Source: Candidatus Eiseniibacteriota bacterium
GTDB lineage: Bacteria; Eisenbacteria; RBG-16-71-46
Assembly: GCA_025360715.1 (NCBI GenBank)
Contig: JANYBS010000007.1
Coordinates: 1-38,649, forward strand
Length of the DNA stretch: 38,649 bases
Reading direction: 5' to 3'
The notes below the pieces were generated by a model that had not been told where the DNA came from, did not search any database, and worked only from the letters and a program-made list of their open reading frames with translations. The translations under genes and the position numbers were made by a program. This document shows positions 146 to 37,041 of the stretch, piece by piece. The number at the start of each line of letters is the position of its first letter. The stretch's first letter is position 1.

Positions 146-2524
146 CTACCGCGCCAGCCAGCATTCGAGCAGCGCTCGCGTCGCGTCTTTGGCCGGAATC
201 TCGCGGGGCGCTTTGATGGTGTCCCAGTCCTGCTGTTGCGCGGGGTTCAATACCGGCAGGCCCACGCACGCGGGGCAGCCGGTGCCGCACGGGCAGCCGA
301 CCAGGTGCGCGAGCGCGGCCTCGGTGAGTTCGTCCAGCCGCGCATAGCCCTGCTCGGCGAAGCCCAGTCCGCCCGGGTAGCGGTCGAACAGGAACAGCGA
401 AGGCCTGCCCAGATTGCTGGAGTCGAGCGTGCCTTGCAGGTCCATGCGGTCGCACATCGCCAGCATAGGCAGCAGTTGCACGAACAGATTGCGCACGCCC
501 GAGAGGGCCTCCCACGGGTTGTGGCCATGCTTGGCGAGGTCGCGCCACGCTTCTTCGCAAGGTGCGAACCACAGGCCGCTCGTATCGAGTGTGAGCCGCG
601 GCAGCGCGAGCGGGTGGTAGCCGATCGCATCGAGTGAACGGTAGCGGACCTTCTTGAACGCGATCGTCTGCCACGAGTACGTGAGCTCCCCGAAACTCAC
701 ATGCTCGCCGCGCCAGGTCTTGTTCTGCAGTTCGCCGCGCACGCGAACGTTCGAGTCCAGCACGGGCTGAGTGTAGTAATCCACCTCGCGGGGCTCGACG
801 GTGGCGATCTTCTGCTCCAGATCGAGCTTGCGCACCCAGTGACTCACGCCGTCATGCAGGTAGATGGCGTCGGGGTAGACGAGTTCCAGACCGCTGATCG
901 CGTCGACGGTGCCGATCACCGCGTTTCCCTTACTTCCGTCCACGATGGTGTACGTGTCATCGCCCATGCTGCGCAGCGACACCTTGGCGCCGGGGAAATC
1001 CGTCTTGGCCCAGTACGCGCGATCGTCGATCACGCGCGTCTCGCCTGCCTCTTCAAGCGCCGCGAGCACGTCGCGCGTCTGCGGGCCGAACGCCGCTTCG
1101 TCGTCCGGCCCGAGCGGCATCTCGTACGCCGCGCACGCCAGCTGCTGCGCCAATATGTAGGGATTGTGCGGATCGATGCAGGCGGCCTCGGCCGAGCGCC
1201 CGAAGAAGAACTCGGGCTTGCGCATAAGGTACTGATCGACCGTGTCGTTGTAGGCCACCAGCACCACCACGCTCGGGCTGCCGCTGCGGCCGGCGCGCCC
1301 CGCTTGCTGCCAGATGCTGGCTAGCGTTGGCGCCGCGCCGATCAAGATGGCGGCGTCGAGCCCGCCCACGTCGATGCCCAGCTCGAGCGCATTGGTGCTC
1401 ACCACGCCGCGCAGCTCACCCGAGAAAAGAGCTTTCTCGATCGCGCGGCGCTCCTCGGGGAGGTAACCCCCACGATAGGGGCGTATGCGTTCATGCAGTT
1501 TGTCGCCGCCACGGCGCCCCGAGCGCTGCAGCTCATCGTGCGCGTAGCGGTAGACCAGCTCGGCCGACACGCGCGACTTGGTGAACACGATCGCCTGCGC
1601 GCCGCGCTGCAACAGGCCGGCGAAGATCGCGCAGCCCTCCACGTTGGAGCTGCGGCGCTCCACATGTGTCTCGTCGCGATACGGCGGGTTCCAGAACACG
1701 AAGTGCTTCTCGCCGCGCGGCGCGCCGTCGTCGTCGACCACCGCCACTTCGCGGCCGATCAGCGAGCCGGCCAGCTCGCCGGGGTTGCGGATGGTGGCAC
1801 TGCAGAGCACGTACTTGAAGTCGCCGCCGTAGTGGCGCACCAGGCGTTCCAGGCGCCGCAGCACATTGGCCACGTGGCTGCCGAAGATGCCGCGGTAGGC
1901 GTGCATCTCGTCGATCACCACATAGCGAAGATTGCGCAGGAATCGCGACCACTTCGCGTGCTGCGGCAGGATCCCTGCGTGCAGCATGTCGGGATTCGAG
2001 AGGATCACATTGGCACTCTCGCGCAGTTTCTTGCGAGTGCTCGCGGCGGTGTCGCCGTCGTACACGCCGGCGTTGAGCACGTGCGAGAGTCCCAGGTCAC
2101 TCGCCGCCAGGCGCGTGAGGCTCTTGAGCTGGTCCTGTGCCAGCGCCTTGGTCGGGAACAGGTAGAGCGCCGTGGCATCGGGCTCCTCGAGGATGCGCTC
2201 GAGTGCGGGCAGGTGGAAGCACAGGCTCTTGCCGCTCGCGGTACCGGTGACGACCACCGTGTCCTGCCCGGCGCGCAGCGCCTCGATCGCGCGCACCTGA
2301 TGCGTATAGAGCTGCGCGATCCCGAGCGAGGCCAAGCCATTGGTGATGGGCTCGGGCAGCGGCGGATACAGTTCACCGAAGCGCGCCGGACGGGCCGGCA
2401 GCGTCTCCCAATGCGCCACGGCACCCCGGTTGTCGCGCTTGCGCGCGAATTCCGCGAGCCAGCGAGCCAGATCGTGATCGTCGGGCGAGTCGTCATCAAG
2501 GAAGTGCGTGGGCTGGGCTTGCAT
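146..2524 (-). CDS. DEAH-box DNA helicase with C-terminal zinc-binding DUF1998 (MrfA/YprA-like)
   Basis: This predicted superfamily 2 helicase of about 792 residues matches the MrfA/YprA family. MrfA in Bacillus subtilis works in mitomycin C lesion repair; the role here is inferred from family. Visible motifs are a Q-like element (YTHQVRAIEAL, about 73-83), Walker A GTASGKS (94-100), DEMH (205-208), SAT (242-244), and motifs V/VI (ALELGIDVGG; QQAGRAGRSG). The C-terminus has a four-Cys cluster (CPCGTGCPAC), typical of the DUF1998/MZB zinc site. I chose the ATG at 2524 (MQAQPTHF). The open frame continues to 2611, but those extra residues look non-coding and would run through an A/T-rich patch (about 2584-2591) that could hold the promoter. 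The gene lies 167 bases downstream of the envelope-protein run and is probably transcribed separately. Confidence 0.9.
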   Translation of the reverse strand: MQAQPTHFLDDDSPDDHDLARWLAEFARKRDNRGAVAHWETLPARPARFGELYPPLPEPITNGLASLGIAQLYTHQVRAIEALRAGQDTVVVTGTASGKSLCFHLPALERILEEPDATALYLFPTKALAQDQLKSLTRLAASDLGLSHVLNAGVYDGDTAASTRKKLRESANVILSNPDMLHAGILPQHAKWSRFLRNLRYVVIDEMHAYRGIFGSHVANVLRRLERLVRHYGGDFKYVLCSATIRNPGELAGSLIGREVAVVDDDGAPRGEKHFVFWNPPYRDETHVERRSSNVEGCAIFAGLLQRGAQAIVFTKSRVSAELVYRYAHDELQRSGRRGGDKLHERIRPYRGGYLPEERRAIEKALFSGELRGVVSTNALELGIDVGGLDAAILIGAAPTLASIWQQAGRAGRSGSPSVVVLVAYNDTVDQYLMRKPEFFFGRSAEAACIDPHNPYILAQQLACAAYEMPLGPDDEAAFGPQTRDVLAALEEAGETRVIDDRAYWAKTDFPGAKVSLRSMGDDTYTIVDGSKGNAVIGTVDAISGLELVYPDAIYLHDGVSHWVRKLDLEQKIATVEPREVDYYTQPVLDSNVRVRGELQNKTWRGEHVSFGELTYSWQTIAFKKVRYRSLDAIGYHPLALPRLTLDTSGLWFAPCEEAWRDLAKHGHNPWEALSGVRNLFVQLLPMLAMCDRMDLQGTLDSSNLGRPSLFLFDRYPGGLGFAEQGYARLDELTEAALAHLVGCPCGTGCPACVGLPVLNPAQQQDWDTIKAPREIPAKDATRALLECWLAR

Positions 2525-2656
2525 CGTGCGCTCGCATGCGCCGGGCGTGACGCGGCGCGATCCGGTGTGGTCGCCATGGGGTGGATATACTGCACACATG
2601 AGCAGTAACACGCGCGGGGCGCGGCGGCCACAGGAATATCGGGAGCCTTGCGGTGA

Positions 2657-2671
2657 CCGCGCCTGGCGCGG
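2657..2671 (-). terminator. GC-rich hairpin downstream of the envelope-protein run
   Basis: CCGCGCC-T-GGCGCGG is a perfect inverted repeat just past the stop at 2692. There is no T-run after it on the minus strand. It may be a weak or factor-dependent terminator between the four-gene run and the helicase, or only a chance GC-rich palindrome. Confidence 0.25.
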
Positions 2672-2691
2672 CTGGGCGCCGGGCGGGCGAG

Positions 2692-3762
2692 CTACTCCAG
2701 ATTACGGTTCGTGGGCTCGAAACCCGCGATCACCCAGTCGCCATCGCGGGGCTCGAACGTGACCCGGTAGGCCTCGTTCTGCCCGCGGAAGAACACCATC
2801 TGCGACGCGGTCTCGCCGGTCGCCGGCGCCACGCGCCAGCGGCCTTTGCCCGGCGACTGCCAGTCGAAGCGCCTCGCGAAATCGATCAAGGGAGTCTCGG
2901 CCACGAGCGGCATCGCGCGTTCGCGGTCGTTGGCTACCAGCGCCCCGATGAACGCCGTGAATGTGGAATAAGGCGAAGGCACCGCGCGGTCATCGAGCCG
3001 CGTGAAGCCCGCATCGCTCCAGCGAAAGCGCCGCGCGCGATACACGTGCGGACACGTGGGGCACTCGTCGAAGTAAGCGGCCGGATGGAACGTGCGCGTC
3101 TGCAGTTCCGCCGACGAATCGTTCGATGCGAACTCGCCCGAGCCTGTGCCGCCCAGCGAGTCGGCGCCCAGGGACTGCAGCAGGTCCCAGCGGCCATGCA
3201 CGTAGCGCCAGACCGTGACCTGCGGCTGCTGCCCGCCGCCCACGCGCTTGCCCCAGAGCACTGCCGTCTGCGAGGAATCCTGCGGCGTGTCGTCGTGTGC
3301 GAACGCGTGCGTGGCCACGTCGGTCAGGTGCAGTCCGCGCGACTCGATCGCCTGCAGGCGCAAGCCGTCCTTCTGGTGCCAGTACAGGTACGGGTACGAG
3401 GGCCCCTCGGGATCGCTGCGAGAGAACATGTTCACCACGGTCGCGCGCGCATTGCCCGCCGCCTCGGCGCCGATGCCGAGCGAATCCAGCACGCCGCGCG
3501 CGCGATCGGGCCACGGGCCATTGGGCCGCAGCGTCAGCGCCTGCACCACGAGCCGTGAGCTCTTCTCGGCCGCTTCGTCGTTCATGCCGCTCTCCCAGCG
3601 ATCGGTCGCCTCGCGCGCGAGCACCGCGAACGAATCCGCAGGCGCGTGCATCGACGAATCTGCCGACGCCGGCACCAGTTCGGTGCGCCGCGTGCAGCCG
3701 GCCGCAGCGCACGCGGCGGCCAACAGCACGAGCCGCGCGAACCCGGGGGAACGAAGGGACAT
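2692..3762 (-). CDS. Predicted lipoprotein of unknown function, paralogue of the next gene upstream
   Basis: This 356-residue protein begins MSLRSPGFARLVLLAAAC and has a lipobox-like AAGC at about residues 20-23, so it is probably a lipoprotein. I do not recognise the family. It shares its layout with the product of 3762..4955: a YLYW motif followed by LRLQ (LRMQ in the other), a middle region describing graded quantities, and a closing DGDWVI (DGRWVI in the other). The sequences are clearly diverged, so the duplication is old. The start at 3762 shares one base with the upstream stop (TGATG), which favours translational coupling. A longer frame to 3984 exists but would overlap the neighbour and precede the signal sequence. 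Probably the last gene of the 8678-2692 transcription unit. Confidence 0.75.
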   Translation of the reverse strand: MSLRSPGFARLVLLAAACAAAGCTRRTELVPASADSSMHAPADSFAVLAREATDRWESGMNDEAAEKSSRLVVQALTLRPNGPWPDRARGVLDSLGIGAEAAGNARATVVNMFSRSDPEGPSYPYLYWHQKDGLRLQAIESRGLHLTDVATHAFAHDDTPQDSSQTAVLWGKRVGGGQQPQVTVWRYVHGRWDLLQSLGADSLGGTGSGEFASNDSSAELQTRTFHPAAYFDECPTCPHVYRARRFRWSDAGFTRLDDRAVPSPYSTFTAFIGALVANDRERAMPLVAETPLIDFARRFDWQSPGKGRWRVAPATGETASQMVFFRGQNEAYRVTFEPRDGDWVIAGFEPTNRNLE

Positions 3763-4955
3763 CACTTGCGCATGCCTCGCAGGGAGTCGGGCAACGACAG
3801 CCCGGGGGTGCCGTGTGGTGGCGGCGGCGCCGAAGCCTGCACCGCGATCCAGTCGCGAATCACCCAGCGGCCATCCTGGATATAGAAGTGGAAGATGTAC
3901 TTCTTGGTGGCGAGCGGCGTGCGGATCTTGACTTCGTACCACTGCGGCCATGGCTGGCCCTCTTCGCCATACTCGATCGTCCACGCGCCGGGCCCACGCG
4001 CCTTGTCCCAGCCGTTGGCCAGCGCATCGAGCATGCGCTCGGGCTTCATGAGCAGGCGCTTCGCGCTCTCGCGGTCGCCACGCTGCAGCATGAGAGCGAA
4101 CATGCGCAGCGCCGACGTCGCCGACGGCACGGGCCGCGCATCGTGTAGCACGAAGCCCTCGTTCGATTCGGTGTACAGGTACTCCGCCAGCAGTTGCGGC
4201 ACGTCATTCGGCACTCGCAGGAATGAATCCGCCTCGGCGCGGTCGAATACCACCAACTCAGGCTGGCCGTCACCGTTCACATCCATGAGGTCGGCCTGGG
4301 CGTGACCGCTCATCCGCGGACCGTGGCCTTCGTAGTCGATCAGGTTCCAGAACGTGCCGTCGGCACTCATGCGGAAGAGCCGAAAGCCCACCGAGTCCGG
4401 CTGCGTGAGCCGCGTGAACAACAACCCGGCCGAGTACGGCGAGCCGTTACGCCCACTCCACCACGAATGCAGCCGCGGATGCTGGGTGCGCGGAAAACTT
4501 GTGCCCTGCATGCGCAAGTCGGGGCCGCGGTACCAATAGAGGTAACCGATCGCATCGCTCTTGGGCCGATAGGGATTACGCACGAGCATGAACACGATTG
4601 CCGGCAGGTTGGGGTCGTTCGTGACTTCCACATCGAGACCGAGCGAATCGAGCGTCGGCTCGATCGCCACCGCCTGCAGCATGTGCTGGCGGCCGAGCGA
4701 GCGCAGCAGCCGCCGGCCGGCTTCGGCGCACATCTCAAAAGCTTCGTAGTTCGGGCCATTCGCGCTGTCGCCGCGCTGGCTCTGGAACCTGACCTTGGCC
4801 TGCGCGGCAAGCGCCCACAACGTGTCGTTGGCGGGCGTCCACGGCTTGACGGTCTGCGCGCACGCGGGCAAAACAGCCCACGTGCTGACCAGCATGACGA
4901 GCGCGAGCAGAAGCGCGAACAGCGACGGGTGCTGAGGGGTCTTGAGAGTCATCAT
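3762..4955 (-). CDS. Secreted protein of unknown function with an FG-GAP-like Ca-binding loop
   Basis: This 397-residue protein has an N-terminal signal peptide (MMTLKTPQHP then a hydrophobic stretch ending in ACAQT). The middle contains DLMDVNGDGQPELVVFD, which resembles the DxNxDGxxE calcium loop of FG-GAP/VCBS repeats. The C-terminus ends in a compact domain with FHFYIQDGRWVIRDW. I do not recognise the family. It is a diverged paralogue of 2692..3762, with a shared YLYW core and DGxWVI ending, and is translationally coupled to it. Adjacent ATGs lie at 4955 and 4952. The upstream Shine-Dalgarno match (GAAGAA) is weak, and 76 bases separate the gene from 5032..6288, so coupling to that gene is less certain. 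Confidence 0.72.
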   Translation of the reverse strand: MMTLKTPQHPSLFALLLALVMLVSTWAVLPACAQTVKPWTPANDTLWALAAQAKVRFQSQRGDSANGPNYEAFEMCAEAGRRLLRSLGRQHMLQAVAIEPTLDSLGLDVEVTNDPNLPAIVFMLVRNPYRPKSDAIGYLYWYRGPDLRMQGTSFPRTQHPRLHSWWSGRNGSPYSAGLLFTRLTQPDSVGFRLFRMSADGTFWNLIDYEGHGPRMSGHAQADLMDVNGDGQPELVVFDRAEADSFLRVPNDVPQLLAEYLYTESNEGFVLHDARPVPSATSALRMFALMLQRGDRESAKRLLMKPERMLDALANGWDKARGPGAWTIEYGEEGQPWPQWYEVKIRTPLATKKYIFHFYIQDGRWVIRDWIAVQASAPPPPHGTPGLSLPDSLRGMRK

Positions 4956-5031
4956 CGGTGATTCTTCAGGCCTCGCCCCGGTCGGGGTCAAGCGCGAATC
5001 GGCGTGGGGTGGGAATCGTGACGGCTGCTTG

Positions 5032-6288
5032 TCATCTGCGGCGCGCGAACCGGGGCGATGCAACGGGCGCGGCCGGGAGCCGATAGTAGTACACCGTCAT
5101 GAGCGGCGGCTTCACAGCCGGCGATGAGAAGGCGATCGTACTCAGCGCGCGCAGCAGGAATCCCTGGCCCACATTGCGGCGCGCCATCTGTTCCACGAAG
5201 GACGTGAGCGTGTCCGAGCGGAAGACCACATGCAATGGGTCGGCGTCCGCATGTCCGAACGCGAGCCCGCCTCCGATGTTGGGATACGGCGGACCCGGAA
5301 AGATGAAGTTGCAAGCGAGCCACGTGTTCTGTGCGGACCACAGCGCGGGTTGCGCGGCCTCGGTGACAGTGGCCGAGTTCACCGTCAGCCACAGCTCGGC
5401 TCTCACGCCAGCCAGCCGCAACGTGTCGCGTGTCCCCGAGATGGACCAGCGGATCCCCGAGTTGTAGATGGAGCCCGCCGTCAGCGTGGCACTCGTGCAC
5501 TGCTGCGGCGCGTTGCGCGTATTCTGGACGCCGCCATAGTCCTGGGTATTCACGGTGAACGAATCGACCGGCGTGCTTTCGGGTAGCACCTGATACTGCG
5601 CGACCGGGCCCTGCAGTACCTCACCCGTCGCCACGTTCAGGCCATCCACCGCCCAGTACACTGTTGCGCCGAGCGGCCACGGGTGGCGCGGCGAGAAGCT
5701 CAGGAACGGCGTGTGCGCGACCGGCAGGATACTGCGGTTCGTGACGGCGTTCACATCCGTCGACGCATACACATCGTACTGGATGCCGGTGACGGGCGGG
5801 CCATTGCCGCTCCACGCGACCGACGAGAACGGCCCTTCCAGCTTCGACGGCGCCGGATAGTCGTACCGGATCCGCCGCAGGCCGTTTGTGGTGAACTGCC
5901 AGAAGTAGGTGTTCCCGAGCAACGTGCCATCCTGCGCCTGGATGCGCGGTGAGAACTCCACGGTGTAGGTGCGACTCAGGTCCAGGAGTGTTCGCGGAAT
6001 CACGCGGATGCGGCGCGTGATGCCTTCGTAGACCACATCCATCGGGATGCGGCGGGTGTCGACCTTGAGGAACACGGTCGTGGAGTCGACTGTCTTGGCC
6101 ACGAGCGGCCGGTCGAAGCGCGCCCAGATCTCGGTGTCATAGATCGTGCGCGGCGAACGCGCGGGCGGTGAGACCTCTTGCACCAGAGGTCCCATCTGCA
6201 CGGCCGGCGGAGTCGGCGAATGCTTCGACGCGCACGCAAGCGGCAGCAACGCCAGCGTGGCGAGCGCGAGTACTCCGAGGCGCCGCAT
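5032..6288 (-). CDS. Lipoprotein with Big_5-like Ig domain and C-terminal DNRLRE-like domain
   Basis: About 418 residues. The N-terminus MRRLGVLALATLALLPLAC looks like a lipoprotein signal with Cys19, although the lipobox is imperfect (P at -3). Residues about 40-135 fit a bacterial Ig-like Big_5 domain (ARFDRPL, VEFSPRIQAQDGTLL, WQFTT). The last third (LRLAGVRAELWLTVN, VGQGFLLRA, PLMTVYYYR) resembles the DNRLRE-type beta-sandwich found in secreted proteins. The role is probably surface or periplasmic carbohydrate or protein binding (inference). The upstream stop and this start overlap within GTGATG: ATG at 6288 gives TGATG, and GTG at 6291 is a possible alternative. This implies coupled translation with 6288..8678. 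Confidence 0.78.
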   Translation of the reverse strand: MRRLGVLALATLALLPLACASKHSPTPPAVQMGPLVQEVSPPARSPRTIYDTEIWARFDRPLVAKTVDSTTVFLKVDTRRIPMDVVYEGITRRIRVIPRTLLDLSRTYTVEFSPRIQAQDGTLLGNTYFWQFTTNGLRRIRYDYPAPSKLEGPFSSVAWSGNGPPVTGIQYDVYASTDVNAVTNRSILPVAHTPFLSFSPRHPWPLGATVYWAVDGLNVATGEVLQGPVAQYQVLPESTPVDSFTVNTQDYGGVQNTRNAPQQCTSATLTAGSIYNSGIRWSISGTRDTLRLAGVRAELWLTVNSATVTEAAQPALWSAQNTWLACNFIFPGPPYPNIGGGLAFGHADADPLHVVFRSDTLTSFVEQMARRNVGQGFLLRALSTIAFSSPAVKPPLMTVYYYRLPAAPVASPRFARRR

Positions 6289-8678
6289 CACCGGATCACC
6301 ACGAAACGCCCGACCTGATGGCCCATCGAGGAATCGATGGTGAACAGGTACACGCCCGAGACCACGTCCTGGCCATTTCGCGAGATCAGGTTCCAGCGCG
6401 CTTCGCCGTCGCCCTGCGCGCCATCGTGGTCCAGACTCTGCACCAGATCGCCCGCGAGCGTGTAGATACGGATCGTCGCACGAGCCTTGGGCAGGCCGAT
6501 GAAATCGATATGCCGGCCGAACGTGTCACCGGCGACCGGTGGGCGGTCCCACACCACACCGCCACGATAGGGATTCGGCACGACCGTCACCAAGCCCGCC
6601 TTCGCACGCGCCGTGTCGTGCGGCGTCACGAGCGAATCGAGGCTGCTCACGATCGGGCTTTCAAAGCGCTGCGTGAGTGTGAGTGCCGGAGACACCTTGA
6701 TGCTGCGCTCCGACACGGTGGTGACCACATAGATGTAGTCGAACCCGTTGTCGACTTCGCGGTCGATGAAGCGGTAGTGCCCCGCCGGATAGAGCTTCTG
6801 CCCGTAGAGCACTTTCAGATAGTCAATCGTCGTATCGGTGATGGCAGAGATCGGCGTCTGGCTCTGCAGCGTATCCAGTGCGAATGCCGCGATCTGCTGG
6901 AACTTCTCGGGGCCTGGCAAAAGGCCCTTCCGGCGCCAGTCGCTGAGCCGATAGACGTTGTAGCCGCTGAAGCGAGTGACGCCGCCGCCCGACGCGCCAC
7001 CGGCGATCGCCACCTCGGGCAGGTTGTCCCACTCCACGGCGATACCATGATCGGCCGCGAGCGCGCGATACGTGGGCGGCGGCGGCACCGACGCCGGATC
7101 GGTCCAGTACGCGTGCGTCTCCTTGCCGTCGAACCCGGTGCAGATGTCGCAGTCGGCATCGACCCAGCGCGGGTGCGCGGCATCGAGTGTGAGCGTGACC
7201 TCGGACGGCGAGGCCGGATACGGCTGTGTCGGGTACTGGCTGAAGCAGCCCTGCTCGATCTGGGTCGTGCCCGCGGACTTGGGCAGCGTGATCAGCGTCT
7301 CGTGCCCGGTCACGCCACTCACCGATTGCGAGGTGCGGTTGAGAAGCGTCGCTGTGGTGTCGGGATACAGATCGAGCCATGAACCGTGATGCAGGATCGC
7401 GGCCAGACCCATACTGGTGACCACCGAATCGGCGTTCTGGCCACAGACGAGCGCCAGGTCGAATGTGTAGCTGCGGCCTGGCTCCATGCGCGGGAAGGGC
7501 CCGCAGCTCACGAGCACCGCGTAGTCGTGCGGCGTCGTGTAATCGGGTGCGCCGGGGTAGGTGCCCACCATGGCCCTGTAGCGATCGGCGTCCACGAGCG
7601 GCAGGCCGCCCTGTCCCGGCGGCAGGTCGAGTGCGAACACCTTGTAGTCGAAATGGCTGTGCGAGGGCGCCGAGAGGAACGGCAACACGCGATTGTCGAT
7701 CTGATTCGTCTCGTACATCTGCGCGAGCGGATCGAGCGTGTGCGCGAGCGGGATCACGCCGAACGCCGGCAGGCCCGAGCGCGGGTTCGCGTCTTGTACC
7801 ACGGGCGCGATGCCGCTGAGCAGGCCGCTACACTGCTTGGAGTAGTACGCCGGCGGCGAGAGCGTGAGGTACCAATCATTGGTGAGCGCCAGACCATCGT
7901 TATAGGGAATGGACCACGGCCGGAACGAGATGATGTCATTCACATGCCCACCCGCGTCGCCATAAGCGCGCGAGTCCAGGTCCACGAGCAGGCCGATGCG
8001 GACATCACGAAGGGTCTGCGTGCCATGGTTGTGCACGACGAAGTGCAGGCCGGCGATGCGGTCGTAGCCGGGCTGCGACCACGCGTAGGCCTCTTGGTAG
8101 ACGTCCAAGCCCATGGCCTGGTGCGCTTCGCCGTTCGGAAAACTGTAGGCGAGCGCTTCGGGCTGGTCGTCGGCGTACTCGGCACCGAGCATCTGCGAGC
8201 TGGGAACGCCCAGGTCTTCGTCGATCTCGCCGTCGCCATCGTCGTCGCGGCCGTTCAGGCGCTCTTCATCGAACTTGCCGTCGCCGTCGTCGTCGAAGAA
8301 CCGCTGCGTCCCGGGCAGGCCGCCGTAAGCCGTACGCACATGATCGTCGGCCGATAGCGTAGGGCGCCACTCCAACAACGGGCCGCCACTCACTCGGTAC
8401 GTGCCGTCCTCACGCCGGGCGCCCACCCACAGGTCGGCGCTCTTCAGGCCCTGGTTACCGGATCCGCGCGGGTACTCGAACGACGGGTCGAACGAGCGGC
8501 CCACGTCCTCGAACGGGTTGCCGATAGCACCGATGTTCGTGATACGCATCGAGAACGCGCCCGCACTCAGGGTCGGACCCTTGTTCTCCACGTCGAGCAC
8601 CGCCCAGGCGCGGGTGGGAACCACCGCCAAGGCGAGCAGGCACAGCAGTATCCGAGGACGGAGCGAAGCGGAGCTCAG
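6288..8678 (-). CDS. Large secreted protein with Ca-binding loops and FlgD-like C-terminal sorting domain; CTG start proposed
   Basis: The mature protein is about 770 residues. After a signal peptide (SLRPRILLCLLALAVVPTRAWA) comes a beta-rich region with two DxDxDG loops, DDDGDGKFDEE (about 129-139) and DDDGDGEIDED (145-155), like EF-hand/thrombospondin-3 calcium sites. A later region (about 525-700) holds an FN3-like segment (FSGYNVYRLSDW). The last ~75 residues (ATIRIYTLAGDLVQSL, ISRNGQDVVSGVYLF, ending FVVIR) form a FlgD-like sorting domain. The frame is open to 8819, but that ATG lies upstream of a good promoter (8725-8753). The best start below it is CTG at 8678, with GGAG about 7 bases before. 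A single-base indel in the nearby AAAA run could instead join an ATG at 8695 (MLRRK). First gene of the envelope run. Function unknown; probably surface-exposed. Confidence 0.8.
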   Translation of the reverse strand: MSSASLRPRILLCLLALAVVPTRAWAVLDVENKGPTLSAGAFSMRITNIGAIGNPFEDVGRSFDPSFEYPRGSGNQGLKSADLWVGARREDGTYRVSGGPLLEWRPTLSADDHVRTAYGGLPGTQRFFDDDGDGKFDEERLNGRDDDGDGEIDEDLGVPSSQMLGAEYADDQPEALAYSFPNGEAHQAMGLDVYQEAYAWSQPGYDRIAGLHFVVHNHGTQTLRDVRIGLLVDLDSRAYGDAGGHVNDIISFRPWSIPYNDGLALTNDWYLTLSPPAYYSKQCSGLLSGIAPVVQDANPRSGLPAFGVIPLAHTLDPLAQMYETNQIDNRVLPFLSAPSHSHFDYKVFALDLPPGQGGLPLVDADRYRAMVGTYPGAPDYTTPHDYAVLVSCGPFPRMEPGRSYTFDLALVCGQNADSVVTSMGLAAILHHGSWLDLYPDTTATLLNRTSQSVSGVTGHETLITLPKSAGTTQIEQGCFSQYPTQPYPASPSEVTLTLDAAHPRWVDADCDICTGFDGKETHAYWTDPASVPPPPTYRALAADHGIAVEWDNLPEVAIAGGASGGGVTRFSGYNVYRLSDWRRKGLLPGPEKFQQIAAFALDTLQSQTPISAITDTTIDYLKVLYGQKLYPAGHYRFIDREVDNGFDYIYVVTTVSERSIKVSPALTLTQRFESPIVSSLDSLVTPHDTARAKAGLVTVVPNPYRGGVVWDRPPVAGDTFGRHIDFIGLPKARATIRIYTLAGDLVQSLDHDGAQGDGEARWNLISRNGQDVVSGVYLFTIDSSMGHQVGRFVVIR

Positions 8679-8724
8679 GGTTTTCTCCGAAGCATGAACA
8701 GGGGGTGTCGAAGCGTGGCCGCAG

Positions 8725-8753
8725 AGTCTAGGCACCACCACCGCCCACCGCAA
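8725..8753 (-). promoter_or_regulatory. Sigma70-like promoter of the 8678-2692 run
   Basis: On the minus strand, TTGCGG (8753-8748), 17 bases, then TAGACT (8730-8725). Transcription would start near 8718, about 40 bases before the CTG start at 8678. The position argues against the longer reading frame beginning at 8819. Confidence 0.6.
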
Positions 8754-8883
8754 TGCCGGAACGCGCAAGAGCGACGAGCGCGGAGAGCGGGCGACGGGCG
8801 AGGGGCGAGCGGCCAGCACCGGGCGCGGCCGGCAGCGGAGTGCAGCCGCGGCTTTTCCCCTCGCCTGCCGCGCGAGTGCGCTC

Positions 8884-8889
8884 TAGAGT
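8884..8889 (+). promoter_or_regulatory. -10 box TAGAGT immediately before an ATG (possible leaderless start)
   Basis: TAGAGT is followed by 7 bases and then the ATG of the NRDE gene at 8897, so transcription would begin at or next to the start codon. I see no convincing -35 box at 16-18 bases and no Shine-Dalgarno sequence. Confidence 0.4.
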
Positions 8890-8896
8890 GGCGCCC

Positions 8897-9652
8897 ATGT
8901 GCACACTCCTTCTGGCTCGTGACGTTCTTGGGGCTGGCACCATCCTGATCGCCGCGAACCGCGATGAGGATCCCAGCCGCCCGAGTGAAGTGCCGCAGGT
9001 GCTCGTCGACTCCCCGCGGATCATCGGCGGCCGCGATGCGCGCGCCGCTGGCACGTGGCTCGCGATCCGCGGCGGCGAGCGCCCCGCGGTGGCAGCGCTG
9101 CTCAACCGCCGCCCGCGCGAAGGCGCGAGCGCCGGCGTACGCTCCCGCGGCGAACTGCCACTGCGCGTGCTGCGCGCCGCAGACGCCCAAGCGGCACGCG
9201 CCGAAGCCGGCGTGATCGCCGCCGAGAACGCGTATGCGCCGTGCACGCTGCTGTTCGCGAGCACGGCCGCGTGCTGGCTGCTCGAGATCCCGCACGAGGG
9301 CGCGCCGCGCATCGTCGACATCGCGCCGGGCTGGCACGCGCTCACGCATGCCGAGATCAACGACATGCACGAGCCGCGAGCGCACTTCCTGCACACCACG
9401 CTGCGCGGCTGGCACCCACCGTCGCCGCACACGGCCATGGCGCGCATGAGCGCGCTGCTCGCGTCCCACGGCGGCGGTTCGCGTCCCGCGGTGTGCCTGC
9501 ACGAGGGCCCGGTGCGAACGGTTTCGTCGTCGCGCGTGTGGATCGGCGCGAACGAGCTTCGCTATGCGCACGTCGAAGGACGGCCGTGCGAGATGGCCTT
9601 CACCGACCAGAGCGCGCTGCTCGGCGAGCACGCACACATGGAGCATGCATGA
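8897..9652 (+). CDS. NRDE-family protein (TANGO2-like, Ntn-hydrolase-type fold)
   Basis: This 251-residue protein starts MCTLLLARD and has the signature AANRDE at about 21-26, which defines the NRDE/TANGO2 family. Cys2 sits where an Ntn-type nucleophile would be exposed after Met removal (family inference). Further matches are the GGRDARAAGTWLA segment and ALLNRR. TANGO2 proteins have been linked to haem and lipid handling in eukaryotes; bacterial roles are not established, and nothing here settles the substrate. The frame extends upstream to 8753, but that stretch is Arg/Ala-rich and non-coding in character. The ATG at 8897 gives the family's usual N-terminus. The stop overlaps the SDR start by 4 bases (ATGA), so the two are likely co-expressed. 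Confidence 0.88.
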   Translation: MCTLLLARDVLGAGTILIAANRDEDPSRPSEVPQVLVDSPRIIGGRDARAAGTWLAIRGGERPAVAALLNRRPREGASAGVRSRGELPLRVLRAADAQAARAEAGVIAAENAYAPCTLLFASTAACWLLEIPHEGAPRIVDIAPGWHALTHAEINDMHEPRAHFLHTTLRGWHPPSPHTAMARMSALLASHGGGSRPAVCLHEGPVRTVSSSRVWIGANELRYAHVEGRPCEMAFTDQSALLGEHAHMEHA

Positions 9653-14969: not shown

Positions 14970-16307
14970 ATGCCCATTGCGTCCATCCGCCGCTCGCTCT
15001 TCGCTGCCATCGCGCTCGTCGCTGTCACGAGTACCGCGCACGCGGACTACACCATCCAGGAGACCGGCTCCCTTGGCCGCAACAGCACGCTGACGTCGGT
15101 GAACAACAACGGCGTCGCCGCAGGCTGGGCGTTCGTGAACGACTCGCTCACGCATGCGTTCCGCTGGAGCAACGGGAACCTCGTGGACCTTGGTACGTTC
15201 GGTGGCAATTCGAGCTACGCCTACGGCATCAACGACAACGACATCATCGTCGGGCAGTCGAACGCGTCTCAGGGCGGCCCGCTGCGTCCGGTCAAATATG
15301 AGAACGGCGTGTGGACCGATCTCGGTACGCTCGGCGGCCCGACGGGCGCCGCGTTCGGGATCAACAACCTGAACGAGATCGTCGGCCAGACCGATAAGAG
15401 CGGCGGCCTCGTGACCACGCACGGCTTCTTCTGGAAGAACGGCGTGATGAGCGACCTCGTCACGCTGGGCGGCCAGTTCAGCACGGCCTTCTCGATCAAC
15501 AGCAACTCGCGCGCCGCGGGCGTCGCCGCGCTGAGCGGCTTCAATGGAAATCACGCGGCGACGTGGTCGAACGGCGTGGTGACCGACCTTGGCACGCTCG
15601 GCGGCACGTTCGGCGTGGCCAAGGCGATCAACGACCGCGGCGACGTGGTGGGCTACGCGAGCGCGGCGGGCGTCTCGCCCACGCGCGCGTTCCTGCGCCC
15701 GAATGGCGGTGCGGCCAACCTCGCGCTCGGCGCGCTGGGCGGCAGCACGCTCAATAGCCAGGCGAACGGCATCAATCACAACGGCGTGATCGTGGGCTGG
15801 TCCGAAGTCGCCGACGACACGGTTCATCATGCGTTCGTGATCTTCGGCGTGGGCAATACGATGCTCGACCTGAACACGCTGCTGCCGCCCGCATCGGGCT
15901 GGAAGCTGCTCGAGGCCACCGCCGTGAATGATGCCGGCGTGATCGTGGGCAACGGCCAGCACCTGGGCGGCGTGCGCGGCTTCTACATGGTGCCGGTCGG
16001 CACCCTGGGCGTGGAGATCCACGAGAGCGACGCACTCGCGTTCTCCGGCGCGTTCCCGAACCCGGCCGCGGGCCGCACCCAGTTCGCGTTCACGTTGCCG
16101 GCGCCCGGCCACGCGCGCCTGGCGCTCTACGACCTGTCGGGCCGCCTCGTGCGCACGCTCACCGAAGGCAGCCTGAGCCCGGGTCGCCAAGTCGCTTCAT
16201 GGGACGGTCTCGACGCCCAGGGCAAGCCGGCGGGCGTGGGCCTCTACTTCGCGCGTCTCGAAGCCGCCGGCCACGTGGTGACGCGGCGTGTGAGCGTGAT
16301 GCGATAA
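14970..16307 (+). CDS. Secreted HAF-repeat protein with FlgD-like C-terminal sorting domain
   Basis: This 445-residue protein has a signal peptide ending AHA (about residue 25). It then has at least five HAF repeats of about 45 residues, each with the DLGTLGG-type core (about 73, 117, 162, 206, 252) and GINxxxxIVGxS turns, which probably form a beta-propeller-like or solenoid structure. Residues about 360-445 are the FlgD-like sorting domain (NPAAGRTQFAF, ARLALYDLSGRLVRTL, WDGLDAQGKPAG, GLYFARLE, ending VSVMR). HAF repeats are known from extracellular proteins of unknown function. GGAG lies 7 bases before the ATG. It has its own promoter upstream and a terminator at 16328-16366, so it is probably monocistronic. 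Confidence 0.88.
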   Translation: MPIASIRRSLFAAIALVAVTSTAHADYTIQETGSLGRNSTLTSVNNNGVAAGWAFVNDSLTHAFRWSNGNLVDLGTFGGNSSYAYGINDNDIIVGQSNASQGGPLRPVKYENGVWTDLGTLGGPTGAAFGINNLNEIVGQTDKSGGLVTTHGFFWKNGVMSDLVTLGGQFSTAFSINSNSRAAGVAALSGFNGNHAATWSNGVVTDLGTLGGTFGVAKAINDRGDVVGYASAAGVSPTRAFLRPNGGAANLALGALGGSTLNSQANGINHNGVIVGWSEVADDTVHHAFVIFGVGNTMLDLNTLLPPASGWKLLEATAVNDAGVIVGNGQHLGGVRGFYMVPVGTLGVEIHESDALAFSGAFPNPAAGRTQFAFTLPAPGHARLALYDLSGRLVRTLTEGSLSPGRQVASWDGLDAQGKPAGVGLYFARLEAAGHVVTRRVSVMR

Positions 16308-16327
16308 GGATATGGGCGACTTCGATC

Positions 16328-16366
16328 GGCCCTGCGATCCTTGGGATCCGTGGGGCCTTTCGTTTT
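16328..16366 (+). terminator. Two-part Rho-independent terminator after the HAF-repeat gene
   Basis: The outer stem GGCCC/GGGGCC encloses a 3x3 internal loop and an inner GATCC-TTG-GGATC hairpin. TTTCGTTTT follows. It lies 20 bases after the stop at 16307. Confidence 0.75.
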
Positions 16367-16388
16367 CGTACGAGAGATGCAAATCATA

Positions 16389-16418
16389 TGTACAGGGGTT
16401 CGGACGCGCGTGCATAAT
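16389..16418 (+). promoter_or_regulatory. Promoter of the 2063-residue repeat protein
   Basis: TGTACA (16389-16394), 18 bases, CATAAT (16413-16418), in a locally A/T-richer patch. TG lies directly before the -10 box. The expected start near 16425 leaves a leader of about 61 bases. Confidence 0.5.
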
Positions 16419-16485
16419 CATCCAGGATCCCAACCGACCCTGCGCCCCCGCGCCGGCTCTCCCATCCAGCCCGGAGCCCGCCCCG

Positions 16486-19400
16486 ATGAAACGCCCTCGA
16501 TCCTGCTGCTCTCCGATCATGGCGTGCGCACTCGCGCTGGCGTGCCTCGTGCTCGCGGTGACCACGGCGTGCGCCGATGTCAGCGGGATCCGCCTTCACC
16601 AGATCGCGTGGAGTTGCCGCAGCGGCGATGCGAATACCGCGTTCCTCGAGTTCGAGGCGGCCGCGCCTGGCCAGAGCCGCGACGGCACATTGAATCTCGA
16701 GATCGTGAATGCGCTCGGTATGGTGGCCGCCGACATACCGATCGACTTCGGCTCGCACACCGGCGAGCCGTGGCCCGCCGGCACGACATGGCTGCTCGGC
16801 GGGTCCGCGTTCGCCGCGAAAGCAGGGATCGCGGCTGACGGGCCGCTGCCGAACACACTGCAACGCCAAGCCGGCTCCGTCACACTTTACGTCTACGACT
16901 CGACCGGTACGCGGCTCGACCTGGATCGCCTCGAGTGGGGATCGGGCAGTGGGCTCGTGCGCGCGCCCTACGCGGGACAAAGCCTCGTCCGTGTGGACTC
17001 GGCGACCTATACGCTCCAGCGCGCGCCCAACCCGACTTCGAGTTCCGGAGCGACCGCTGGTGGCGGCTGCTATGGCTATGTGCCCGACTGGAATCTCGGG
17101 CTCGACCAATTGTTCCTGGCATGCGGCAGCGGACAGAAGGGTGCACGCTACATCTCGGTCGCGGCGAGATCGGCTACGACGCTCGACCCGAACGTGCAGT
17201 TGCGCCTGTGGGACTTCCGTGGCAATTCCCTCAGCAGGCTCTCGAATCTCTTCGGCGCCAAGGCCGGCACCACGGTCGCCGCAGGAACGAGATTCCTGCT
17301 CGGCTCTACCGGCTTCCAGAGTGCGACCGGCATGGCGGTCGACCGCACGCTCACACCTCTGCCGGATTCTCTCGGTGGTACCATCACGTTGGTCGGACTC
17401 AACGCCGCGGGTGACAGCGCCACGGTCCTGGACGCGATCGTGTACGGCCTCGCCGGCGCCGCGACCGTCACGACGCCATCTCCCGGGCTGGCCGTGCAAC
17501 ACCAGCCGGACGGGTCCAGCACCACGAATGCGCCGGCCACGCCGCGCAATCTCGCCGGCGCCGTCGGTACCGGCAGCTGCCTGCAGCCGAACGCGAACGG
17601 CCTGCTCGTGCGGATCGGCGAAGTGGGATTCGGCTGCCGCATGGGAACGCCGGGACTCGCGTTCATCGAGTTGCTCTCGCGCGCGGACCAGCCCTACGAC
17701 ACGCGGATCGGGTTGCGCGCCTACAACGCGAGTGGCGCCCTACTGTTCGACATGCCGGCCGTCCTCGCGAATCGCACCGGCACGTTCACGGCCGCGAAGC
17801 GGTACCTGCTGGGCTCGAGCGTCTTTGCGACTCTCACGGGCACGAGCCCCGATGGCGTGCTCGCGGCGGCGCTCGATACCACCGGTGGCGTGCTCCAGCT
17901 CTACGCGTCGGGGTCCGTCCTCCACGAGTTCCGCTACGGCGCAGTACCCGGGGGTCTCGCGCTGCAGCCGCCAGGGGGGAGTTGGGAACTCGACGCGAAT
18001 GATGTCTTCCAACCGCGCGCCGCGGCCACTCCCACGAACAGCAGCGGTGTGTCGGCAAGGGCGACGCCCTGCTACACGGGCACTCCCACCGTGACGCTTG
18101 GTATCCAGGAGTTCGCGAAGAGCTGCTACTACGGCACCCCGGCGACTTCCTACATCGAACTGAGCGGAAGCGGCTTCCTCGATGCGGGCTTCTCTCTCGA
18201 AGTGACCGCAGCCGACGGCCATCTGCTCTACTCGCTCCCACAGTTCACCGCCCCCCTCTACGGCACGTTCCTTTCGAACGGTGGGCACGTACTTCTCGGC
18301 GGGCCGCGCTTCGCGAGCATCGTCGGGCTCACGCCCGATGTCGTGCTTCCGGCCGATCCCGACAGCATGGGAGGCCGAATCCGGCTCGTGCGCACCGATC
18401 CGGTGACGCAGGCGATCACGGTGCCGTCCGAACTCGTCTACGGAAGCGCGGGAGGGCCACTGCCACCGCCCGGCGGCTGTCTGCGATTGCAGAATGGCGC
18501 GGGCCCCTTGGGCAGCCCAGGGTTTGTCGCGGTGAGCACACCTGCGCCGACGAATCGTTTCGGCGTCCTCTCCAATTCGAGTGCGTGCTACCCCTATCGG
18601 CCAAGCACAGCCGTGCGCATCCGCGAGTTCGCCACACGGTGCCGGGACGCGTCGCTGTCGGCGTCCTTCATCTCCCTGGAGTTCACCGCGGACCAGTTGC
18701 TCGATCCCGCGATCGGACTGCGGATCACAGACCATTCGGGCAAGGTACTCACGACGGTCGAGCCGCTCTACGGGCCCGATGTGATACGGCGAGTCTCGAG
18801 TGGCCAGTCGTTCTTGCTGTCGAACGCCGGCGCGTCGACGATCGGCGTGGCTTCCGACATCACACTACCTGTTGCCCTCGATCCGCTCGGCGGCACGCTA
18901 ACGCTCTACGTGCATCCGGTGACATCGGCTTCGAGCACCGACTTCGCAAGCACCGCGTATGCGCCGAACACGCTGATCCCCGCCCCGGATCCCGGAGGCA
19001 GTCTCGCACTCGTGGGAGGCATCGGTGCGCTTCGTGACGTGCCGACGCCGAGCAACCTCGCGGGCGAGACGCCCGGTAGCACCTGCTACGGCGTGCCTGA
19101 TGCGCACGTCTTGCTCTCCGAAGCGGGTTTCGCGTGCGCGGGCGCCACAAGTGGCGGCTACGTCGTGATCGCCACGACGCGTTCAGGCGCCGCGATCGAC
19201 GACCGCATCGGCCTGCGTCTGCGTGATGCCCATGGCGCACTGCTCGTCGACGTGCCGCACGTCCTGCACGCGCTGCTGGGACGAAGCTTCAGCAGTTCGG
19301 GACGCGTGCTGCTCGCGACCACGGGATTCTCGTCGACGAACGGCGTTACGCCCGACGTGTACTTGCCGGTGACGCCAACGACGGACGGCGGCACGATCAC

Positions 19401-22400
19401 GCTCTATCAGCGCGACCCCGTGACTGGCGCTGAGACACGCATTCACGAGCTTGTGTATGGCAGCGCCCCTGGCGGCACACCCGCACCGCCGCCCGGCGGC
19501 GCACTTCTCGCTGCGCCGGATCTGGCATTCCATGCGGTGGACACGCCAACACCCTCGGGCCTTTCGAGCGTGATCGCACAGGGCGCCTGCTTCGGCTATC
19601 AACCACCGCTCGGCCTCGGAATGCACCTCGTGGGCCTCGCTTGCCGCGATGGCTCGCCGGCGTCGTACCTCGAACTGCGTGCAAGGTCGGCGGTATTCGC
19701 CGACACGTTGGTCGGCCTGCGTATTCGAGATGCACATGGCGCATTACTCTCGGAGCTGCGTGACCCATTCGGCGCCGCGGCATGGCAGTCCTTCGCGCCA
19801 GGCCATTCGTGGCTCCTCGCCACACCTGAGGGCGCCACAGCACTTGGGATCCTGGCCGATGCGACTCTGCCTGCGGCGCTCGACACCACGGGCGGCAGCA
19901 TCGCGTTGTTCGTGCATCGCGGCGACGGCAGCGAGACCGCGCTCGACTCCCTGTCGTGGGGCGCCGCGACGACGCTCGGCCGCGTCACGCCCGGAGCGGC
20001 GATCCGGGACGGTCGCTTCACAGTCGCCCTGCCCGATGTGCATGACTCGGCAGGCGCACTCGCGACGTCGCCGTGCATCGGAACACCGACGGTGCGATTG
20101 CATCTCGCCCAGCTCGGGTTTGGCTGCGCCTCCACCGTGACTCGCACGGCCGGGCAGTTCGTCGAGGTGGCGAACGACGATCCGCGCGCCACGCTGCCCT
20201 ATGGCGTCGACTTCACGAGCGGTGACGAGCGGTCTCGCACGCCGATCTTCCGGAATCGTGAGGGCTCGGCTTGGAGCGTCGGCGGACGGTGGCTCGTGGC
20301 CGATGCCGCCTTCTCCACCGTCGAAGCCGGACTCGCGATCGATGACGCGTTCGTGCAGCCGCTCGGGAACATCAGCCCGGCCGAGGTGTTGCGGCTCGAG
20401 CAGACGATCGCACCTCGCTATGCACCGGTCGTGATCGACGAATGGGTGCTTGCTTGCAACGGTTCGTGCAACGGCGCCGGCTATGGCAAATCGCTTGTGC
20501 GTGGAGCCGATGGCGTTTTTGTCGCCGACGCTATTCCGACGATTCGCAACTTCGCTGGAGACTCCCGCGCGGACACCGCTTGTTATAGCGAGGGCGCAGA
20601 CCCGCTCGCGACGCGCTTGCTGGGCTTCTCGCCGGGATGCGCGATCGCTCAAGAGGGATCGAGCTTCGTCGAGCTCTACACCTCGAACGGCCTGCCCGAT
20701 GCGACACTTCGGTTACAGATCCGTGACCATGCGGGCGCGCAGACCGCTGATGTCGGCGGACTCTTCACCGGGCATGAACACGACAACCTCACCGTCGGTC
20801 ACGCGTGGCTCATCGGCACCACGGGCTTCTCGCTGGCCGCGGCGTATGCCGCCGATGTGGAACTACCGATCTCGATCGACCCTGTGGGCGGCCGGGTCAC
20901 GCTCTACCATCCCGCGACCGCGCTGCACGGAACCACGATCGCCTCCGATGTCGCGTGGGGCCCGGGAACATCGCTGCCTGCGCTTCCATGGATGAGCGGT
21001 ATCGTCCCCGGCGTCGGCCTCTCCTACACCTTCGCGCCGAACGCCACGCCGTCGAACTACTCAGGCTCCTCGCTGGTGAGTTGCTGGGGCGATGGAACAG
21101 GCACGCACGCTCCCTACGTCAGCGACCTTGCGCCCACGTGCATGAACGGCGATCCGGGCGTGCGAACGATCGACATGTTCGAGGAGCACGGTCAGTACTG
21201 CATCAATGGTGGCGATTGGTACAACTGCTGGCCAATCGAGTATCCGCCCTCGACGACAGGCCGGCTCGTGTCGCGCGATGTGAGCGGCGCACCTATGGAC
21301 TCCGTCGAGTGGCATTACGGTGAAGCCGGGGGCCTCGAGGGCTTCAGCGGATACTATTTCTTCGGCTCACCACTCGCCGAGGCGCTGCTGCATACGTCGA
21401 CGTTCCTTCCCGCGCCGCGCATCGATCCGCGCGGAGGCCGGATCGAATACAGCACGCTCGATTCGCGGAATCGCGCACTGGGTGTGATCCGGTATCATGA
21501 CGTCGATCCCATGAACTCGATCGCGCCTGCACTTCCGAACGCACAACGCAGCAATATCATCCTAGCGAAATCCTGCCCCCCGTGCGGGCTGACGGATCTT
21601 TGGACCGGTATCCAGCGCGAGTCGCGGACGGTGTATGCCGCGCTCGTCGACACGGCATACGAATCCGATGGCGTGACGCTACACGTGCACGCCGACGCCG
21701 CGAGCGGCATCTTCGCGCTTCAGGCCGCCGACGCCGCGCGCGCGCCTTCGCGGATGATCCAGAGCGACGAGTTCACGCTCCACGGCACGCCGTCCGGCGT
21801 GGAGGTCCCCATCGTCGTGACGCTCGTCGTGCACGCGGCTTTCGGTGGCACCGGCACAACCCCCGCGTACGCGCCGCGGGCGATGCTCGACGTCGCCGGA
21901 TCCGGCGGCTGCACGTTGTGGCATGGCTATCCGGGTATCTCCGGGCGGCCGCTCGACGTCTTCGACACCTTGCGCGTCGCCGTGCGAGCCGTCGCGGACG
22001 TGCCGTTCCGGGTCACGACCCGCCTGAGCTTGGGCGAACCGCGGAACTCGGCGCCGGGATCCTTCGACACGCAGCTCTCATTCGCGAACGTGCCCGCGGG
22101 CGGCGCACTCACAAACTGCCGCGGCTACGGTTCACAGGTCGTGCCGACCGCAATCGCACCACAAAGCGCGAACGCGTTCTCCGACCACGTCGACGTGAGA
22201 TGGGTCGGCGGGCAGGTCGGAACGATGTACACGATCGAGCGAAGCGAGGATGAGGGACCCTGGACCACGCTCTCGACCGCTGTAAGCGACCACAACGGCA
22301 CGATCATACTGCGCGATACGAATGTGCATGCCGGTCGCGACTATGGCTATCGGTTGCGCGCGGGCGACCTCCTGCCCGCGACCGAAACGCACACCCGAAT

Positions 22401-32124: not shown

Positions 32125-32153
32125 ATGCTGCGGCAGGCACGCGAACGCGTCAA
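32125..32153 (-). promoter_or_regulatory. Candidate promoter of the YncE-like gene
   Basis: On the minus strand, TTGACG (32153-32148), 17 bases, CAGCAT (32130-32125). The -35 box overlaps the stop codon of the gene upstream (32150..33817). The -10 box is poor. Confidence 0.4.
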
Positions 32154-33817
32154 CGCACCACGACGATGCGGCGAATGAGCCGAAGGTTCCCGCAGCCGAC
32201 GCGGGCAAGGTAGAGGCCGGGCGGCGCCATGCGTCCGTGGGCGTCGCGGCCATCCCAGCGCAGCGTACGCTCGCCCGCTGCAGCGTCGGTCGCGGCGGCG
32301 CTCCACGCAAGCCGCCCGGTGGCATCGAAGATCTCGAACGTGACGCGCGCAGGCGTGGGCAGCATGAGCGTCAGCGTCACGCTGCCGTGGCTCGGCAGTG
32401 GCGATGCCGCCGAAAGTCGCAGCGACACTGCGCCCGGCACGACGCTTGCGGCGGGCGCCCAGCGGATGCGGCGCACGTGGTCATCGCCGATGCAGGCCAC
32501 GAGCAGGTCGCCCGTCGCGGGATCCACCACCGAATCCACCGGCCCGTTCATACCGGTCGCCAGCGGGGTGGCGTCGACGAAGTGCTGCAACGCATCGAAG
32601 CGCACGCCGTACATGAAGCCGCGATAGAAATCGCCGATGATCAAGCGCCCTTGCCAGGGTTCGGGAAATGCCGAGTTCACCAGGAACGCGCCCGGCACGA
32701 TGCAGTTGCCACGGACCTGGAATGGCGCGCTGGAATCCGCCGACACGTGGCTGATCGCCAGCACGGGATCGCGCATATCGCCGATGCCGCTGCAGCCGCC
32801 GAACGCCGGTGTGAGCGCCGCGTACGGCGCGCACGCCCGCGCGCCTTCGCGGCACGGCCAGCCGAAGTCGAGGCCGCCCGCCGGCACCACATCGAGCTCT
32901 TCCCACTTCTCCCAGCCCACATCGCCCACGTAGAGCGTGCCGGACTGGCCGCTCGCTGCGCTCACGCCTCCGGTGCCCGGACGCACGGTGAAGCGAAACG
33001 GATTGCGCAATCCGTAGGCCCACACTTTGGAGACCACCGCATCGGGATCGCCATTCCAGAACGGATTGCCCGGCAGGCCGTGGCCAGTGAGCGGATCGAT
33101 GCGCAGGATCTTGCCCGCGGGGCAGTCGAGTTGCTGCGCGCGAAACGCACCGCGGTCCATGGAAGGATCGCTGCGGCCCGCAGCGAACAGGGTGGGATCC
33201 TGGCCGCCGGCATCGACGCGGTCCCAGTGCGCGCCTTCGCCCGCCGAGACGAACAGCGTGCCGTCCTCGCCAAAGCGCAACGCGCCCACGTCGTGCGTGC
33301 CCGACGCGTTCGGGATGCCGCTGTGCCATGACGCGCCCAGCAATACGGTGCGTGTCGCGGGATCGATGCGCGTGGGATCGGACGCGCTCACCTGATAGCG
33401 CACGAGACGGCCGAAATGGACGCTGTCGTCATCGACGCCGTTGGAATCGGGATCGACCGAATACAACAAGAAGATCCGGCGGTCGATCGCGAACGCTGGC
33501 GAGAGTGCCATGCCCAGAAGCCCGCAGTCGCCGTCGATCTCGACTTCGTTCTCGGCGGACCACATGGGTGTGGGCAGTTGTACGCCGTGGTCGATCACCC
33601 ACACGCGGCCGGGCACATCGGCCACCAGCAGCAGCCCGCCCGGCGTGAACGCGAGCGCGACCGGGGCCTCGATGTGGCTGCCGGGGATCGCGTCTTCGAC
33701 GACGAAGCCCTGCGCCGCCTGCGGCGTGCACAGCGGTACGGCCTGAGGAGCAAAAGGCATCGCGGCCGCCGCGCCATGGAGCCACGCAGCGGCCGCGAGA
33801 GTGTGAAGCGCAGACAT
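32150..33817 (-). CDS. Secreted glucose/sorbosone dehydrogenase-like protein with FlgD-like C-terminal domain
   Basis: The protein is 555 residues. Residues about 40-445 match the GSDH/soluble PQQ-dependent glucose dehydrogenase beta-propeller: APVALAFTPGGLLLVAD, GTHDVGALRFGEDG (His175 at the position of the conserved catalytic His), KILRIDP and YGLRNPFRF. The end (about 470-555) is a sorting domain (FEIFDATGRLAW, WDGRDAHG, GLYLARVGCG, IVVVR). It could oxidise sugars with PQQ, but many such homologues lack proven activity. The N-terminus lacks basic residues, so its signal peptide is atypical. The start lies inside GTGATG: ATG 33817 (TGATG with the upstream stop), or GTG 33820. It is a close relative of 33817..36984. 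Confidence 0.85.
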   Translation of the reverse strand: MSALHTLAAAAWLHGAAAAMPFAPQAVPLCTPQAAQGFVVEDAIPGSHIEAPVALAFTPGGLLLVADVPGRVWVIDHGVQLPTPMWSAENEVEIDGDCGLLGMALSPAFAIDRRIFLLYSVDPDSNGVDDDSVHFGRLVRYQVSASDPTRIDPATRTVLLGASWHSGIPNASGTHDVGALRFGEDGTLFVSAGEGAHWDRVDAGGQDPTLFAAGRSDPSMDRGAFRAQQLDCPAGKILRIDPLTGHGLPGNPFWNGDPDAVVSKVWAYGLRNPFRFTVRPGTGGVSAASGQSGTLYVGDVGWEKWEELDVVPAGGLDFGWPCREGARACAPYAALTPAFGGCSGIGDMRDPVLAISHVSADSSAPFQVRGNCIVPGAFLVNSAFPEPWQGRLIIGDFYRGFMYGVRFDALQHFVDATPLATGMNGPVDSVVDPATGDLLVACIGDDHVRRIRWAPAASVVPGAVSLRLSAASPLPSHGSVTLTLMLPTPARVTFEIFDATGRLAWSAAATDAAAGERTLRWDGRDAHGRMAPPGLYLARVGCGNLRLIRRIVVVR

Positions 33818-36984: not shown

Positions 36985-37041
36985 CGGACGACCTCCGAAG
37001 GTCACGGGGGGAGAGCCAAGCTGGGTCGGTCGGAACGTGGC

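Follow-up and report, generated by a model that had tools for sequence, protein, structure and literature searches.

An earlier note proposed that four adjacent minus-strand genes in a Candidatus Eisenbacteria contig form one envelope operon. The genes, here called A to D, were read as encoding a sorted calcium-loop protein, an Ig-like lipoprotein and two paralogous exported proteins, all driven by a single promoter and perhaps assembling into one complex. Two questions follow. Do the four genes travel together in relatives as a unit? And if their products do act together, what might they build? We addressed both in the window, by which we mean the whole 38,649-nucleotide stretch of DNA analysed, and in related genomes. 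The host is Candidatus Eisenbacteria, and all 12 relatives that come from named genomes carry that name. We find that the locus is a real, conserved and lineage-restricted envelope cluster with C and D at its core.

The four open reading frames are present where the earlier note placed them (Table 1). Two of the three junctions read TGATG: between A and B the stop codon occupies 6290-6288 and the ATG begins at 6288, and between C and D the stop occupies 3764-3762 and the ATG begins at 3762. B and C are separated by 76 bases (4956-5031). The overlaps would allow coupled translation of A with B and of C with D. They leave the stoichiometry free, so the proposal that TGATG fixes it goes too far. 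The proposed promoter at 8725-8753 fares no better. A scan of positions 2400-9000 returned no sigma-70-like site, with 0.7 expected in shuffled sequences, and no terminator. By our own count the claimed element, TTGCGG-17-TAGACT, has seven of the 12 consensus bases. Of its two halves only TAGACT recurs in a congener, as TAAACT, and the other congener lacks it; we rejected the upstream alignment as support for a promoter, because the three congeners are too divergent apart from the TAGACT/TAAACT common to two. The start of A is likewise uncertain. Position 8678 is a CTG with GGAG six bases upstream, and the nearest in-frame standard starts upstream of it are GTGs at 8735-8741; either is a candidate.

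Table 1. Features of the four-gene cluster and its downstream neighbour, in window coordinates.
Feature	Position	Strand	Basis
Gene A, exported protein of ~796 aa, mature start ~8600	6288..8678	minus	ORF call
A: two acidic DxDxDG-type loops, probable calcium sites	8214..8294	minus	invariant in 8-row alignment (A6)
A: C-terminal FlgD_ig/T9SS-type module, last 112 aa	6291..6626	minus	same module in other ORFs of the own genome
Gene B, Big_5 (Ig-like) probable lipoprotein, 418 aa	5032..6288	minus	Pfam Big_5
Gene C, exported protein, 397 aa, paralogue of D	3762..4955	minus	signal end by eye, profile comparison
C: FG-GAP/VCBS-like putative calcium motif	4257..4283	minus	invariant residues, FG-GAP_3 match
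Gene D, lipoprotein, 356 aa	2692..3762	minus	lipobox, alignment, model
D: E-C-x-x-C-x-H motif, predicted third blade	3046..3066	minus	invariant in 18-row alignment (A1)
D: conserved C-terminal tail, [ILV]-E at the stop	2692..2712	minus	family alignment (A1)
MrfA/YprA-type helicase downstream of D, outside the four-gene unit	146..2524	minus	DEAD, Helicase_C, WHD_HRQ1 and MZB over cut-off

How constant is this arrangement? A simple gene caller supplied the gene order at the relatives' loci. C turned up in 20 of 59 genomes, which make up the whole of the window's family, its own genome included. D matched in 21 of the 59: the family and a distant homologue in genome G020. In one family genome (G013) the contig stops inside C, and what scores there as D is a cross-match to the C gene. 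The other 19 of the 20 family genomes have C and D side by side in one direction. At 17 of 19 testable loci the stop codon of C is overlapped by an ATG or GTG in frame; G005 and G012 lack the overlap, the frameshifted G011 is left out of the count and G002 is counted twice. When a joint C/D profile was run against 385 genomes, it matched all 20 family genomes and G020, which belongs to the same order, plus one negligible further match (E 0.0095); no C/D relatives were found outside the order. The D profile, likewise, matched none of the 26 genomes of the class that lie outside the order. We asked whether the open reading frame that precedes the distant D in G020 (L132:5976-7196) might be a divergent C, and at an hhalign probability of 0.2 rejected this. 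By distance correlation C-D (r 0.55) does not stand out from the other neighbours.

Strong B matches occur in 13 of the family genomes (G000-G003, G005, G006, G008, G009, G011-G013, G017 and G019), each with B adjoining C on its upstream side; in G017 a further B sits on a different contig (C380). A lies directly upstream of B in seven (G000, G001, G003, G009, G011, G013 and G017), and the two genes overlap in all seven. Elsewhere its position shifts. In G006 a broken or cut piece of A comes before B. A is about 2.9 kb upstream in G005, past two genes of opposite strand in G012 and downstream of D in G015, G018 and G019. The contigs of G002 end upstream of B. In that assembly there are apparently two B-C-D copies on separate contigs (L010 and L029), which could represent two strains.

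The expectation that the four families would lie side by side in relatives is therefore borne out strongly for C-D, well for the B-C pairing and no more than partly for A. A contiguous A-B-C-D order is found in six of the 20 family genomes, two of which (G011 and G017) have frame breaks in C or D. Since C and D are adjacent in 19, C-D is the core and A-B an optional module. What stands of the proposed four-gene unit is its core; A and B are variable, and a gene for an MrfA-like helicase often follows D.

Such variability raises the possibility that there are two independent modules here, one envelope pair made by C and D and another by A and B, adjacent by history and sharing no complex. C-D occurs without a neighbouring A or B in five genomes (G004, G007, G010, G014 and G016), and B-C-D without an adjacent A in G008. 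A-type proteins are moreover widespread (52 of 59 genomes) and multi-copy: the own genome holds 14 matching stretches; a copy of A, 47 percent identical, lies on a different contig, and there are several partial relatives. A tree that included outgroups places the A genes preceding B and those following D in different lineages, separated by well-supported branches; for the downstream copies in genus g12 these branches force two label changes. Either A-type genes reached their places beside C-D by two or more histories, or an older double arrangement was lost in different ways. That an A-type gene should stand beside C-D through two histories argues against independent modules, as does the fact that B adjoins C in every genome with a strong B, the extra copy in G017 aside. 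We consider independent modules somewhat unlikely, and still the most serious competitor of a common assembly.

Among the A-type genes found elsewhere, often beside a family of about 720 residues (f14), five such copies form a group of their own in the tree. The f14 proteins have no clear Pfam match, and their genes adjoin A-type genes in several genomes in differing orientations (L133:10124-12292, L138:9728-11866, L139:2376-4547, L135:9561-11744, L137:4766-6949 and L116:5777-8029).

What kind of proteins are C and D? Their paralogy, proposed earlier, is confirmed by BLASTP (E 2e-5) and by profile-profile comparison (probability 99.8, E 1.5e-27). None of the curated models searched gives the family a name. 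The two differ at their N-termini. D looks like a lipoprotein: its lipobox cysteine is invariant in 11 rows (alignment A3), with LSGC or LAGC in several relatives and AAGC in the window protein. The signal of C, judged by eye, has a signal peptidase I type end, AxA followed by Q. Together with the signal of B described below, the family-level signal in D bears out the suggestion that two members are lipid-anchored, in the case of B probably so.

Each paralogue has its own set of fixed residues. In C, D225, D229 and E233 are invariant in 16 rows (alignment A2), and the region matches FG-GAP_3 just under the curated cut-off (3.1e-5; 24.9 bits against 26.9); at lenient E, 12 of 16 C members match. 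No FG-GAP repeat passes its curated cut-off in C, and none matches D. In D, E233, C234, C237 and H239 are invariant in 18 rows (alignment A1). An ECxxCP version of this motif is kept in some relatives of C and is absent from the window C. D also terminates in [ILV]E in all 17 family rows, an unusually conserved ending that the distant row (L132) does not share.

A structure model of D from a 22-row alignment (mean pLDDT 87.8, pTM 0.79) has helices at residues 43-94, twelve strands from 98 to 260 and then an alpha+beta domain. The strands appear to form about three four-stranded, propeller-like blades, and from the order of its elements the C-terminal domain gives the impression of an NTF2-like fold. 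Propellers are the best structural matches of D, all of them weak (TM up to 0.28, Z up to 8.4), and in a second structural search the matches cover residues ~77-336. Because the matches are weak, we take them to indicate a common arrangement and assign no family. A sequence search of the PDB with the C and D profiles gave nothing at E up to 1. Between the paralogues, hhalign pairs the corresponding segments (C1-D1 66, C2-D2 22, C3-D3 94 and the C-terminal domains 99 percent); within D, blades D1 and D2 match at 18 percent, and all other segment pairs fall under 2 percent. Sequence comparison thus does not establish propeller repeats.

The closest known counterparts would be the FG-GAP/VCBS propellers of the integrin alpha type. 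C resembles them in its DxNxDG motif and FG-GAP_3 match, but the latter is under the cut-off. D resembles them in that integrin alpha is among its best Foldseek matches, but it has about three blades, a TM of ~0.25 and extra helical and alpha+beta domains. A propeller arc joined to a small alpha+beta domain could also suit C and D as a pair of lipoproteins that senses or binds something, as opposed to a structural scaffold. The propeller matches of D, its invariant ECxxCxH and its conserved C-terminal tail would all fit such a pair; the weakness of those matches counts against it, and among the identified neighbours we recognised no transporter, kinase or sigma/anti-sigma gene. We regard a sensing or binding role as very unlikely. 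A SusCD-like reading was rejected, there being no recognised TonB receptor gene beside the cluster.

The description of A as a sorted calcium-loop protein holds up, in that a DxDxDG-rich stretch is invariant in eight rows and the C-terminus is a module of the sorting type. By eye, the N-terminus in the window and in relatives has a hydrophobic stretch ending in AWA before VLD, with the start codon uncertain as described above. The last 112 residues recur exactly at the stop in four other open reading frames of the own genome, and the module lies within about seven residues of the end in two more. Matches of A to FlgD_ig (Pfam) and to T9SS (NCBIfam) are weak, those to T9SS below the curated cut-offs; TIGR04183, for example, scores 12.6 bits against a cut-off of 23. 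The structure model of A is poor (pLDDT 52).

These features recall the type A cargo of the type IX secretion system (T9SS), known from Bacteroidota, where cargo is shuttled by PorV and passes the SprA translocon. A shares with such cargo a hydrophobic N-terminus, as read by eye, and an FlgD_ig-like module at the extreme C-terminus. The module is common to otherwise different proteins of the own genome, which also carries genes of the SprA, PorV and C25 families, C25 being the family of the sortase-like peptidase. SprA exceeds its cut-off in 20 of 23 genomes and the PorV and C25 families are present in all 23; the own genome has 12 PorV-family matches. A differs in scoring under the TIGR04183 cut-off, in having no PorV gene noted beside it in the window and in belonging to another phylum, Eisenbacteria. 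In Bacteroidota, according to one report, PorV recognises or handles type A cargo, and type B cargo genes often adjoin the genes of their own shuttle proteins (PMC12618676). Three open reading frames of the own genome that end in the A-type module lie directly upstream of a PorV-family gene (contigs C127, C138 and C14). In the open literature searched we found no report on Eisenbacteria with type IX secretion or FlgD. The earlier statement that the four proteins have no known function holds for their biochemistry; for the C-terminus of A, by contrast, homology suggests an export route already known.

B, called Ig-like before, is indeed so: it matches Pfam Big_5 at 4e-9, with 37.6 bits against a cut-off of 23.6, and all seven aligned B rows match. 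It is probably a lipoprotein. The N-terminus of the window protein reads LPLAC, non-canonical at -3, two of the aligned rows are called short of their N-terminus, and a canonical lipobox is present in two relatives (LTAC in L143 and IAAC in L150). Surface lipoproteins of the Big_5 / DNRLRE kind offer a partial parallel. B shares with them a Big_5 domain over the cut-off, and one relative has a weak DNRLRE-like end; that end scores far below the cut-off, however, and is not seen in the window protein.

Could the core belong instead with the gene that follows it? The neighbour has the features of MrfA, namely an SF2 helicase core and an MZB zinc domain, with an exonuclease of the MrfB type following in relatives. 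MrfAB (YprAB) is described as a repair operon of Bacillus subtilis (PMC11194089; PMC12458937). In the window the helicase gene lies 167 bases from D on the same strand. It directly follows D on that strand in nine of the 13 loci that reach that far; three have genes in between (G005, G010 and G019) and one has another gene (G011). The distant D of G020 also lies directly upstream of an MrfA-like helicase. In relatives a methyltransferase and an RNase_H_2 (MrfB-like) exonuclease follow; the window contig ends before the exonuclease.

These neighbours, with no terminator found between, would suit a model in which C and D are the envelope part of a response to damage or toxic compounds, encoded in an MrfA-MrfB type repair operon with A and B as passengers. 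Yet elsewhere in the class C/D precedes the helicase at none of the 18 loci with a recognised helicase (20 fetched), nine of which by eye show DinB and DUF72 genes instead, and D itself is confined to the order, as noted above. The gaps between D and the helicase run from 48 to 272 bases, never overlapping. Position is all that A to D have in common with the repair genes, and we see no known reason to link an envelope lipoprotein with excision repair. We judge this model improbable. Co-transcription of the helicase gene with the envelope genes is possible.

The reading we favour, tentatively, is a lineage-specific envelope assembly in which A is displayed by the T9SS and C is held with D, kept vertically in one family of Eisenbacteria. 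That all four proteins form a single envelope complex is plausible. In the proposed core, two paralogues made from overlapping genes would be produced together, D lipid-anchored and C released by signal peptidase I. D, and C by homology, would begin with helices, continue into a propeller-like arc of three blades and end in an alpha+beta domain. We infer that C and D most likely bind each other, because of their constant overlap, their common restriction to one family and their paralogy; the lipid of D would then tether the pair to a membrane. A would cross the outer membrane through the T9SS for display at the surface, with B as its Ig-like lipoprotein partner. Together the four proteins may form a calcium-dependent surface scaffold or adhesin, membrane-held by B and D.

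A bolder version, which we think has little chance of being right, makes C and D half-propellers that close into a six-blade heterodimeric propeller, held by the lipid of D and serving as a docking site for B and T9SS-delivered A. If so, the constant C-D overlap would serve co-translational pairing. The locus brings out an envelope gene pair kept across a whole family of an uncultured phylum, and it ties a paralogous family, unnamed by the curated models searched, to a T9SS-type surface protein outside Bacteroidota. C with D is a concrete pair to test.

Three more window proteins (14970-16307, 32150-33820 and 33817-37005) end in FlgD_ig over the cut-off. Two of them match GSDH (glucose/sorbosone dehydrogenase), one with PKD domains. 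Between the first and second of the three lies a 2121-residue open reading frame (16312-22677) with no Pfam match at E 1e-4.
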